The notes beneath the pieces were generated by a model. That model was not told the DNA's origin. It searched no databases and was given only the letters and a program-made list of their open reading frames with translations. Source: Candidatus Methylomirabilis sp. (lineage in GTDB: Bacteria; Methylomirabilota; Methylomirabilia; Methylomirabilales; Methylomirabilaceae). From it: a DNA stretch of 64,000 nucleotides. A program made the translations under genes and the position numbers. Positions 39,586 to 43,254 of the stretch are shown here, one piece after another. Position 1 is the first letter of the stretch; every line of letters starts with the position of its first letter. The DNA is taken from the NCBI RefSeq assembly GCF_028716865.1, contig NZ_JAQUOY010000003.1, forward strand, positions 62,001 through 126,000. The letters are read 5' to 3'.

Positions 39586-40733
39586 GGAGCGCTGTATCTT
39601 CGAGCAGCGCTGTGCCGATGGAACAGGTGCAGCGCATCCTCATCATCAAGCCGAGTTCGATCGGCGATGTGGTGAATGCGCTCCCGTTCCTCAGCTCCCT
39701 CAGGCGGCGGTACCCTGATCGGTACATCGCATGGCTGGTGGAGGAGGAGGCGGCAGAGCTGCTGCTGGGCCATCCCTTGTTGGATCGGGTCATCGTGTCA
39801 GGTCGCAGACGATGGGGACGGGAGGTGCGGACCCCCTTCCGCGAGTCGAAGATGCTGCGAGAGATCGCTGCGCTCATCGCTGAGCTCCGCCAAGGTCGGT
39901 ATGACCTCATTATCGATTTACAGGGACTGCTGAAAAGCGCTCTCATGGTGGTCTGTGCCGGCGCGCGATTTCGGGTCGGTCTCGCGGGGGCCCGCGAGGG
40001 GAGCGAGCGCGTGTTGACGCACGTGGTGCCGCTTCCACCCGGGCCGCTGCATGCCGTGGACCGATACCTGGAAGCCGCCAGGTTCTTGGGAGCAGACCCA
40101 CTATCGAAGGCGTTCGTGTTTCCTTCCCGACCCGATGACGGAGCGAGGGCTGAGGCGCTCCTGGCTGAGGCAGAGGTGAAGCCGAATGCTTTAGTGGTCG
40201 CCCTGAATCCTCAGGCGCGTTGGCGGACGAAACTCTGGGAAGAGGAGCGGTTCGCGCGCGTGGGGGAACTGCTGGCGCGTCAGTATGGGGCTAGGATCCT
40301 TGTGATCGGGTCTTCCTCGGATCTTCCATTGGCCAGGCGTCTGGCAAGCCAGATGGACCCGGCCCCGTTCGTGGCGGCGGGTCGGACTGATCTCAAGGTC
40401 CTGATCGCCCTCCTAAGGCGGATCGACCTGCTGGTGACGGTCGATTCCGGTCCCATGCACGTGGCGGCAGCGCTCGGAACCCCCCTCGTTGCACTCTTCG
40501 GCCCAACCGATCCACGTCTCATCGGTCCCTACCGAGGCGACCTGTCTGCCGGTCAGGCAGGTGGGGTCGTACTCCGTGTTCCCCTGCCCTGCAGTCCCTG
40601 CTCAAAGCGACGGTGCCAGATCGAAGCGGATCGTTTGTGTATGCGCTCGATCTCTGTCGAGGAGGTGGCGGAAGCCGCCTCGGCGCTCCTCACTACAGGC
40701 CAAACATGTCGAACGGGCCGCGATCTCTTGTAG
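39582..40733 (+). CDS. waaC: Lipopolysaccharide heptosyltransferase I-like (GT9)
   Basis: A 383-residue GT9 protein that probably adds the first L-glycero-D-manno-heptose to Kdo. It has ILIIKPSSIGDVVNALPFL, DLIIDLQGLLKSALM, ALNPQARWRTKLW and VTVDSGPMHVAAALGTPLVALFGPTDP. ATG 39582 overlaps the previous stop; ATG 39618 is an alternative that would begin directly at the Rossmann strand. Residues near GDLSAGQAGGVV look inserted, coinciding with a palindromic repeat in the DNA. GT9 subgroup (WaaC or WaaQ) is not certain. Confidence 0.85.
   Translation: MRSAVSSSSAVPMEQVQRILIIKPSSIGDVVNALPFLSSLRRRYPDRYIAWLVEEEAAELLLGHPLLDRVIVSGRRRWGREVRTPFRESKMLREIAALIAELRQGRYDLIIDLQGLLKSALMVVCAGARFRVGLAGAREGSERVLTHVVPLPPGPLHAVDRYLEAARFLGADPLSKAFVFPSRPDDGARAEALLAEAEVKPNALVVALNPQARWRTKLWEEERFARVGELLARQYGARILVIGSSSDLPLARRLASQMDPAPFVAAGRTDLKVLIALLRRIDLLVTVDSGPMHVAAALGTPLVALFGPTDPRLIGPYRGDLSAGQAGGVVLRVPLPCSPCSKRRCQIEADRLCMRSISVEEVAEAASALLTTGQTCRTGRDLL
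40540..40563. repeat. Palindromic repeat inside waaC
   Basis: ACCTGTCTGCC and GGTCAGGCAGGT form an imperfect dyad inside the waaC coding frame, between conserved blocks GPTDPR and PLPCSPC. It resembles CCTGCCTG/CAGGCAGG intergenic repeat units. Confidence 0.45.
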
Positions 40734-40755
40734 TCGAGATCGTGAGGGGCTGACG

Positions 40756-41559
40756 ATGATTCGACGAGCAGCAGTAGCGGGCTCATTCTACTCTGGCGCC
40801 CCAGAGCGGTTGCGGGCGCAGGCGACCGATTTTATCCAATGGGATCTTCCCAAGGTGCGCGGCATCGGGGCGGTCGTTCCCCACGCGGGGCTTATCTACT
40901 CCGGGAAGGTGGCGGGATCGGTCTATGCCCGTCTCGCCTTTCCTGATGTCTTTGTAATCCTGGGGCCGAACCACACCGGCGTAGGGGCAGGAGTAGCGAT
41001 TATGACCTACGGAAGATGGGAGACGCCCCTTGGACAGGCTCCTATCGACGCAGACCTGGCAAAGACCATCCTGCAGAATTCGCAGGCAATTGAGGAGGAT
41101 CAGCTCGGGCATCAGCGCGAGCACTCGATTGAGGTCCAACTCCCTCTGCTCCAGGCGTTCGGTCTGCCCTTCTCCTTTGTGCCGATCTGCCTCTTCAGCA
41201 GTGAATATGCTGTCTGCCAGGATGTCGGGCTGGCGGTAGCCGAGGCAGTCGCGCGATCGGATCGATCGGTGCTGATAGTGGCCAGCACCGATATGAGCCA
41301 TTACATCAGCCAGGACCAGGCTAAGGCAAAGGATCAACTGGCGATTGAAGCCATCCTGGCGTGCGACCCGGAGCGGTTGCATCGAGTCGTGAGACGGGAG
41401 GAGATTACCATGTGCGGATTTCACCCGACGACTGCCATGCTGATCGCGGCAAGAGAGCTTGGGGCCACCTCGGCCGAGTTGGTCGGCTACGCTACCTCTG
41501 CCGATGTCACCAAGGACGACTCCAGGGTGGTCGGGTATGCCGGACTGATTGTGAGATGA
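40756..41559 (+). CDS. amrB: MEMO-family protein (AmmeMemoRadiSam protein B)
   Basis: A 267-residue MEMO1-like protein. It has RRAAVAGSFYSG at the N-terminus, VVPHAGLIYSGKVAGSVYARL, GPNHTGVGAG, REHSIEVQLPLLQ, VASTDMSHYI and MCGFHPTTAML. The His and Cys residues correspond to the metal site of MEMO (His in VPHAG and GPNHT, Cys in MCG). In the AmmeMemoRadiSam system it is found with AMMECR1 and a radical SAM protein; neither is seen here. Function is still open; redox or metal handling has been proposed. It converges with selD over an 8-base gap. Confidence 0.88.
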   Translation: MIRRAAVAGSFYSGAPERLRAQATDFIQWDLPKVRGIGAVVPHAGLIYSGKVAGSVYARLAFPDVFVILGPNHTGVGAGVAIMTYGRWETPLGQAPIDADLAKTILQNSQAIEEDQLGHQREHSIEVQLPLLQAFGLPFSFVPICLFSSEYAVCQDVGLAVAEAVARSDRSVLIVASTDMSHYISQDQAKAKDQLAIEAILACDPERLHRVVRREEITMCGFHPTTAMLIAARELGATSAELVGYATSADVTKDDSRVVGYAGLIVR

Positions 41560-41567
41560 GTATAGAG

Positions 41568-42617
41568 TTACGGCTCCACCCAGATTCGGCCATCCGGATC
41601 CTCGATGATTTCGCCGATCAGGGCTGTGGCGGGTGTCTCACGCTCCTGCAGGCGCTGAATCATGGCTGCAGTCCTGTTCTTCGGCACCGCGATCAGAAGG
41701 CCGCCGGAGGTCTGGGCGTCGCATAAGATAAGCTGGGCCTCTTGCCGAATCACCGGATCCCAGACGATGGCCCCTTGCAGTGATTCATAGTTCCGTCGCG
41801 TCCCGCCGGGACAGATCCCCTCCTGAATCAATGTCCAGGCCTCCGGGATGACGGGAACCTTTGAGAGCGACACCCTCGCTCCCACCTTGCTCCCCGCAGT
41901 CATCTCGTGGAGGTGGCCCAGCAGCCCAAAGCCTGTGACGTCCGTACACGCGTGCGCTCCCACCGCCACCATAGCCTCTGATGCGTCTTTATTCAGCGCG
42001 GCCATCAACGCGATGGCGCCATCGATGGCCGGCTGCGTAAGCTTGCTCCGCTTGATGGCCGTAGTGATAATCCCCAGGCCAATTGGCTTAGTTAGCACCA
42101 GATCATCCCCGATGAGAGCGGTCGAGTTTTTGAAGATCTTTGTCGGGTCGATCAGTCCGGTCACGACGAGGCCATATTTTGGCTCCGGGTCGTCGATGCT
42201 GTGCCCTCCAATGATGGAGGCGCCGGCCTCACGAACCTTGTCGGCGCCGCCACGAAGGATCTCCCCTAGGATCTTCAGTGATAGCGACCCGACTGGAAAA
42301 CCGATGATATTCAGGGCGAACAATGGAGTGGCGCCCATGGCATAGATGTCGCTTAGAGAGTTCGCGGCGGCGATCAGACCGCAACTATACGGGTCATCCA
42401 CCACGGGGGTGATATAGTCCACCGTCTGGACGATGGCCTGCCCGTTGTCCAGTTGATACACAGCGGCATCGTCTGAGGTCTCGGTCCCCACAAGAATGTT
42501 GGGGTCGTTAAACTTGGGAAGCTGGCCCAGCACCTGGGCCAGATCAGCGGGGCTGATCTTGCACGCTCAGCCCGCTCCATGCGACAAGGACGTGAGCCGC
42601 ACCTGTTGAGCACTCAT
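41568..42617 (-). CDS. selD: Selenide, water dikinase (SelD), itself a selenoprotein with in-frame UGA
   Basis: Makes selenophosphate from selenide and ATP for selenocysteine and selenouridine. Read from ATG 42617 the protein is 349 residues and begins MSAQQVRLTSLSHGAG-U17-ACKISP. The UGA at 42569-42567 falls exactly at the catalytic Cys17 of E. coli SelD (GAGCGCKI), with Lys20 preserved. Stopping at the UGA, or starting at the internal ATG 42533, would remove the active-site segment. GAGGAG precedes the ATGATG start. Downstream blocks are normal (DDAAVYQL, ANSLSDIYAMGATP, GGHSIDDPEPKYGLVVTG, DVTGFGLLGHL). Two perfect hairpins follow the UGA. The organism should therefore have selA, selB and selC elsewhere. 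Confidence 0.94.
42522..42559 (-). promoter_or_regulatory. SECIS-like tandem hairpins downstream of the selD UGA
   Basis: In mRNA sense, 7 bases after UGA comes AGATCAGC-CCC-GCTGATCT (42559-42541), then CTGGCCCAG-GTG-CTGGGCCAG (42542-42522), a perfect 9-bp stem with loop GUG that starts 33 bases after UGA. Known bacterial SECIS elements lie about 16-37 bases past UGA and carry a G early in the apical loop; the second hairpin fits both. Confidence 0.7.
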
Positions 42618-42636
42618 CATTGAGCTCCTCAAGGCA

Positions 42637-43254
42637 CTACTGGAAGGTTTCCGGCCCGCAGGCCGAATGATCCTTTTTCTCTGTCGCTCCGTTCGCAGGC
42701 TGCATTCCTCCTGGTCGTATGAAACGCTGGATCGCTACGGCGCTAAGAAGTCCGATCAGGACTCCCCAGAGCGCTCCGCCCAGGACGTCGAACGGATAAT
42801 GCGAGCCGAGATAGATCCGAGAATACCCAACCAGAACAGCTGCCGGGAAACAGAGCAACCCTACTCGTAAGTGATTATAGGAGAGAAATGTAGCCAAGGC
42901 AAACATGTTGCTGGCGTGGTTGGAGGGAAAGGAGAATGAACGGATACGCAAGCAGGCAGTCGCGTTGAGGACGCCACATGGTCTGATTCGTTGAAATAGA
43001 TCTTTCAGGAGCTGACTGGTTGTATCGGTGAGTAGAATCACCGCGATGGCGGAAATGACTATGATGCGATCTCGTTTCGGACGGAAGAGCAATACGTAAA
43101 CCAGTAGGGCGCCAACCGGGATGGCGAAGTTCCATTTGTTGCTGACGAGCGGCATCAGGAGATCGAAGACTCGGTTCCGTAGGCTTCCGTTAATCAGGTG
43201 GAATCCGGCTTCATCCCACTCGCGCAGTCTTTCGAGCCACGGCAAAACAGACAT
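42637..43254 (-). CDS. PAP2-family membrane phosphatase
   Basis: A 205-residue integral membrane phosphatase with about five helices and all three PAP2 motifs: KDLFQRIRP (K-X6-RP), FPSNHASN (PSGH-like, here PSNH) and SRIYLGSHYPFD (SR-X5-H-X3-D). It probably dephosphorylates undecaprenyl pyrophosphate (BcrC/YbjG-like) or lipid A phosphate (LpxE-like). Its position after selD-independent glycolipid genes on the same strand favours polyprenyl-phosphate recycling or lipid A editing. The hydrophilic tail (GATEKKDHSACG) is not conserved. Confidence 0.88.
   Translation of the reverse strand: MSVLPWLERLREWDEAGFHLINGSLRNRVFDLLMPLVSNKWNFAIPVGALLVYVLLFRPKRDRIIVISAIAVILLTDTTSQLLKDLFQRIRPCGVLNATACLRIRSFSFPSNHASNMFALATFLSYNHLRVGLLCFPAAVLVGYSRIYLGSHYPFDVLGGALWGVLIGLLSAVAIQRFIRPGGMQPANGATEKKDHSACGPETFQ

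Follow-up and report, generated by a model that had tools for sequence, protein, structure and literature searches.

Does the UGA that interrupts selD in this Candidatus Methylomirabilis genome end translation, or is it decoded as selenocysteine (Sec)? We analyzed a 64,000-nucleotide stretch of DNA (the window) in which the minus-strand frame from ATG 42617 reads MSAQQVRLTSLSHGAG, TGA, and then ACKISPADLAQVLGQLP, continuing to a TAA stop (Table 1).

An in-frame UGA at the catalytic position of SelD

Translated through the TGA, the predicted protein is a full-length SelD that matched the NCBIfam selD equivalog TIGR00476 with 406 bits over residues 7-314 (cut-off 125) and PRK00943 with 399 bits (cut-off 299). 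It was colinear with E. coli SelD (PDB 3u0o; 8e-89), and the phmmer alignment to that protein set U17 on C17 and K20 on K20. The residues directly after the TGA are ACKIS, with K as residue 20, and the protein contains the UxxK motif. Translation and alignment thereby confirmed the initial annotation, which had placed the UGA at Cys17 by E. coli numbering (C17/K20). The three nearest titled records were all from Candidatus Methylomirabilota, with 79-86% protein identity. Judged from its sequence, the window gene almost certainly encodes a selenide, water dikinase (selenophosphate synthetase, SelD) that contains selenocysteine.

A GAGGAG motif lies 7 nt ahead of ATG 42617; a second candidate start, the in-frame ATG at 42620, is 4 nt from it. 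At its 3' side selD is flanked by a convergent Memo-family gene (window 40489-41559, plus strand; 8 bp apart) and upstream by a PAP2-family gene (window 42637-43254, minus strand; about 20 bp apart). Neither of these direct neighbours is a selenium gene.

Table 1. Coordinates of selD, its putative recoding signals, and the two fmdB genes (window positions unless a contig or locus is named)
Feature	Position	Strand	Remarks
selD CDS	41568..42617	minus	349 residues, predicted Sec at 17; read-through translation
In-frame UGA (TGA), codon 17	42569-42567	minus	E. coli Cys17 position
selD stop codon TAA	41570-41568	minus
GAGGAG, ribosome-binding-site-like (Shine-Dalgarno-like)	42625..42630	minus	from sequence
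H1 hairpin	42541..42559	minus	8 bp, CCC loop; between UGA and H2
H2, putative SECIS hairpin	42522..42542	minus	stem 7-9 bp, GUG loop 42533-42531
Putative Sec fmdB (formylmethanofuran dehydrogenase subunit B)	C13:24991-26361 = L175:4992-6365	+ (L175)	TIGR03129, 536 bits
Cys fmdB paralogue	C3:44266-45624 (L202)		same host genome

The UGA codon is conserved through the genus and class

We compared the codon at site 17 over 142 SelD loci, drawn from relatives of the host and from titled genomes spanning many phyla; a few records are counted twice in this total. It was TGA in 124, TGT in 11, TGC in 7, and nothing else. All 14 of 14 congeners kept the TGA, and exactly one in-frame TGA occurred in SelD of each of these congeners and, with few exceptions, of the remaining genomes in the class. 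The alignment of SelD homologues that had been suggested as a check thus returned TGA through genus and class and Cys codons otherwise, with no sense codon at the site in any relative within the genus. The codons flanking the UGA were conserved through phyla as well, with the consensus RLTxLSHGAG-U-ACKIxPxDLAQVL. A Cys SelD was seen in one order-level relative (L046), whose assembly is 7% contaminated. Another, from an acidimicrobiial locus (L153, Acidimicrobiia), reads SHGAG-C-ACKLSPADL and has a Sec SelD (L134) as its tree neighbour; it is possible that this represents a recent Sec-to-Cys conversion.

In Sec-SelDs the cysteine neighbouring the Sec lies either two residues after it (UxC, as in SHGAGUACK) or three before it (CxxU, as in AACAGUASK), never both; 2 of 28 motif types had neither, and CxxU was never present in Cys-SelDs. 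Loci in which the contrast shows include L047-L078, L091, L092, and L100, set against window 42617-42560. Because independent changes are few, this exclusivity is suggestive only, and the two cysteines are possibly alternative redox partners of Sec.

The host genome encodes the Sec machinery

The host genome (2.54 Mb, 99.98% complete) encodes SelA, SelB, and tRNA-Sec together with SelD. A search for selA, selB, and selC, also proposed in the initial annotation, recovered all three: selA matched with 513 bits; the selB product contained an EF-Tu-like GTPase domain, a SelB beta-barrel, and two SelB winged-helix domains (2 and 3); and selC scored 67.4 bits, above the Rfam cut-off, and was called by ARAGORN as tRNA-SeC(tca). 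Each of the three genes is on a separate contig and none is next to selD, and an Rfam scan of the window returned tRNA-Val only. The genome holds one SelD copy; a weak second match was 32% identical and lacked the catalytic region, and the host genome yielded no Cys SelD that could serve as a backup. At a strict threshold, tRNA-Sec was detected in 49 of 60 relatives. Among the 11 without a match at that threshold, seven assemblies were rated 90% complete or better, with contamination of no more than 5%.

We considered which processes might explain retention of selD. No 2-selenouridine synthase was found in the host genome, so selenouridine was dropped as a reason and SelD serves, as far as tested, selenoprotein synthesis. 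Formate dehydrogenase was dropped too, since the full-length FdhA homologue of the host has no in-frame UGA.

H2 resembles a bacterial SECIS element and is maintained by base pairing

Two stem-loops follow the UGA at the places given in the initial annotation. The second, H2, reads CTGGCCCAG-GTG-CTGGGCCAG, with the GTG loop beginning 33 nt after the UGA, and has a folding energy of -16.3 kcal/mol. The 51-nt fold with both hairpins reached -25.7 kcal/mol (z -2.9 versus dinucleotide shuffles), and 0 of 1000 synonymous recodings of the same peptide were as stable as the observed sequence over H1 and H2. Bacterial SECIS limits quoted in PMC13188914 are a loop of 3-9 nt, a stem of 4-16 bp, a G in the first two loop positions, a distance of 16-37 nt from the UGA, and an MFE of at most -7.5; H2 falls within every one of them.

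A gapless alignment was made of 51 non-redundant Sec-SelDs that had been picked for their ability to form most of H2. Of its H2 cells, 97.5% were paired, and at four pairs both partners had changed. When the partner was shifted by 1-3 columns, pairing over the entire structure fell from 88% to 26-47%. We also analyzed 81 distinct sequences with no selection for pairing, leaving out the Rokubacteria-like family. H2 pairing in this set was 92% of cells, versus 83% when synonymous codons were shuffled within columns and 66% expected from the genes' own codon usage. None of 300 shuffles reached the observed pairing, a count that is not an exact probability because the sequences share ancestry. The clearest case was the synonymous wobble position of the DLAQVL Ala codon, whose base tracks the codon four on (C with Gly, T with Ser, G with Arg, A with Cys). 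This complementarity held in 66 of 68 genes, with 23 expected, which means that selection is acting on RNA pairing. On a protein tree built without this region the pair changed state at least 11 times, which is a safer statement than the shuffle counts.

The RNA structure differed between Sec and Cys forms of the enzyme: 37% of H2 cells were paired in Cys-SelDs versus 87% in Sec forms, with mean z of -0.25 versus -2.88, and the Cys-SelDs had neither hairpin and were missing the DLAQVL peptide. Rokubacteria-like relatives retained the UGA and lost the pairing of H2 (51% paired), so not every member of the class has this form of SECIS. The UGA SelDs lacking H2 were L047, L048, L050-L058, and L060-L078 (Rokubacteria-like family f7 and part of f5). 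Many of these SelDs have a near-palindrome, CTCCTGGAGATCTCCAGGAG, after the UGA instead of H2. A covariance model of the SelD SECIS run on the host genome convincingly found only selD itself (E 1e-24; next matches E about 0.02 or worse), and thus does not generalize to other selenoproteins.

H1 folds within the spacer between the UGA and H2

The first hairpin, H1, reads GATCAGC-CCC-GCTGATC, and it shares its final two bases with the foot of H2. For the window gene, only 3 of 1000 synonymous recodings were as stable over H1, and the spacer that holds H1 had a mean z of -2.35 against synonymous recodings in 81 genes. Codons facing each other in the stem were complementary: Ser AGC with GCT in 13 of 14, Gly GGC with GCC in 9 of 9, and Arg CGC with GCG in 9 of 9. 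Compensatory changes were seen in H1 as well as H2, the outcome of the covariation check that had been recommended for both. H1 occurs in two registers among lineages, and a single fixed register was rejected on that account.

Lying between the UGA and H2, H1 would shorten the effective distance from the UGA to the SelB loop. Probably it compacts the long spacer of 24 nt and so brings the SelB-bound loop to the right distance. More speculatively, many Sec-SelD genes may share a tandem two-hairpin element in which H2 binds SelB while H1, kept by selection and re-registered among lineages, compacts the spacer or times decoding, perhaps tuning SelD recoding to selenium supply. We put this forward tentatively, as an idea with somewhat less than even prospects.

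Proposed recoding of the UGA and rival readings

The gene, its UGA, the host machinery, and the conserved RNA structure are all directly observed. We infer from them that Sec is inserted at codon 17 and that SelB binds H2. Ribosomes would start at ATG 42617 (or 42620) and reach the UGA, where a SelB-GTP-Sec-tRNA complex held by the GUG loop of H2 would deliver Sec, and release factor 2 would not terminate. The SelD product would then supply the selenophosphate needed by SelA to charge tRNA-Sec, making the enzyme necessary for its own synthesis. The claim of the initial annotation that the host inserts selenocysteine is thus supported by the machinery, the UGA conservation, and the hairpin covariation.

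Alternatively, the UGA could end a 16-residue peptide, with the functional protein beginning at the internal GTG 42533 as a truncated SelD, or with the locus being a pseudogene. A standard ORF finder does return 41568..42533, and the form starting there still scores 370 bits against the selD model. The initial annotation had foreseen this internal start and the loss of the active-site segment; the codon it gave as ATG, however, is GTG. That GTG sits inside the H2 loop, and the product would have neither the catalytic Cys/Sec nor Lys20. Moreover, coding is conserved through phyla on both sides of the UGA, and the sole SelD of a genome bearing selA, selB, and selC would be dead. We consider this reading extremely unlikely.

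Decoding of the UGA as Cys, Trp, or Arg, through a changed code or through readthrough stimulated by the hairpins, appears very unlikely. A hairpin located 3' of a stop codon can promote readthrough, and PMC4561486 offers a proposed precedent in hymenopteran SPS1-UGA. Nevertheless, the genome contains the full bacterial Sec machinery, H2 fits the bacterial SECIS model, and Cys is the only replacement for the UGA at this site. TGA is also the ordinary stop elsewhere in the window, where it is the commonest (24 of 45 long ORFs), so the genetic code is not changed. Nothing was seen in favour of an error of sequencing or assembly that turned TGC or TGT into TGA; the same TGA recurs in 14 separately assembled congeners and more than 100 other loci; with no relative in the genus carrying a sense codon, an error is excluded.

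Comparison with known Sec-SelD and SECIS systems

Sec insertion at codon 17 would place this gene in a known class. Sec-SelD (SPS2-Sec) is the second-largest prokaryotic selenoprotein family (PMC13188914, PMC4561486, PMC1794560), so the arrangement here, in a member of the methane-oxidizer lineage Methylomirabilota, is of a known kind. SPS genes are often selenoproteins, and bacterial SECIS elements have been found by RNAz in Sec SelD genes (PMC4561486). The initial annotation's premise that bacteria have Sec-SelD, with the SECIS just past the UGA, agrees with PMC13188914 and PMC4561486. Every bacterial selenoproteome surveyed in PMC1794560 has FdhA and/or SelD, and a Methylomirabilota MAG with 63 predicted selenoproteins has been reported (PMC13188914). 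In the literature searched, we found no published description of this particular selD gene or of Sec-SelD in this lineage.

The window gene shares with bacterial Sec-SelD the UGA at the catalytic Cys17 position, UxxK, a downstream bacterial SECIS, and the host Sec machinery. It differs in nothing essential, and its spacer carries a second hairpin in tandem. E. coli SelD (PDB 3u0o) belongs to the same family and is 49% identical over 309 aligned residues, but has Cys for Sec and VLETIL where the hairpin here encodes DLAQVL. The SECIS of E. coli fdhF has one long stem with a bulged U and a loop about 18 nt after the UGA; CAG comes before the G-U that opens this loop. H2 likewise has G-U at the loop start after CAG, whereas its loop lies 33 nt from the UGA with a separate hairpin between.

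Read-through annotation recovers a segment of the active site that standard gene callers would miss, and a Sec-SelD would indicate selenium dependence of this Methylomirabilota lineage. The locus is also a clear example in which an RNA hairpin dictates the protein sequence, with base pairing setting both DLAQVL(G/S/R) and the synonymous codons.

fmdB is a predicted second selenoprotein gene

An in-frame UGA also occurs in fmdB of the host, in the context HTSSV-U-HGPG. It is followed by a perfect 8-bp hairpin, GTCTGCAG-GGT-CTGCAGAC, whose GGU loop lies 18 nt after the UGA. With this UGA and hairpin, fmdB is by its sequence the predicted second selenoprotein gene of the host. The UGA form was present in six genomes of the genus (the host and five congeners), and the Cys form in most. 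Bacterial Sec fmdB has been reported in one planctomycete and two unclassified bacteria, and the operon has been noted in M. oxyfera (PMC4807772). Three congeners (G007, G008, and G014) have two tRNA-Sec-like genes per genome; the second scores 54-58 bits and is no more than about 4 kb away from the Cys fmdB gene in each (G014:C18, G007:C49, G008:C3).
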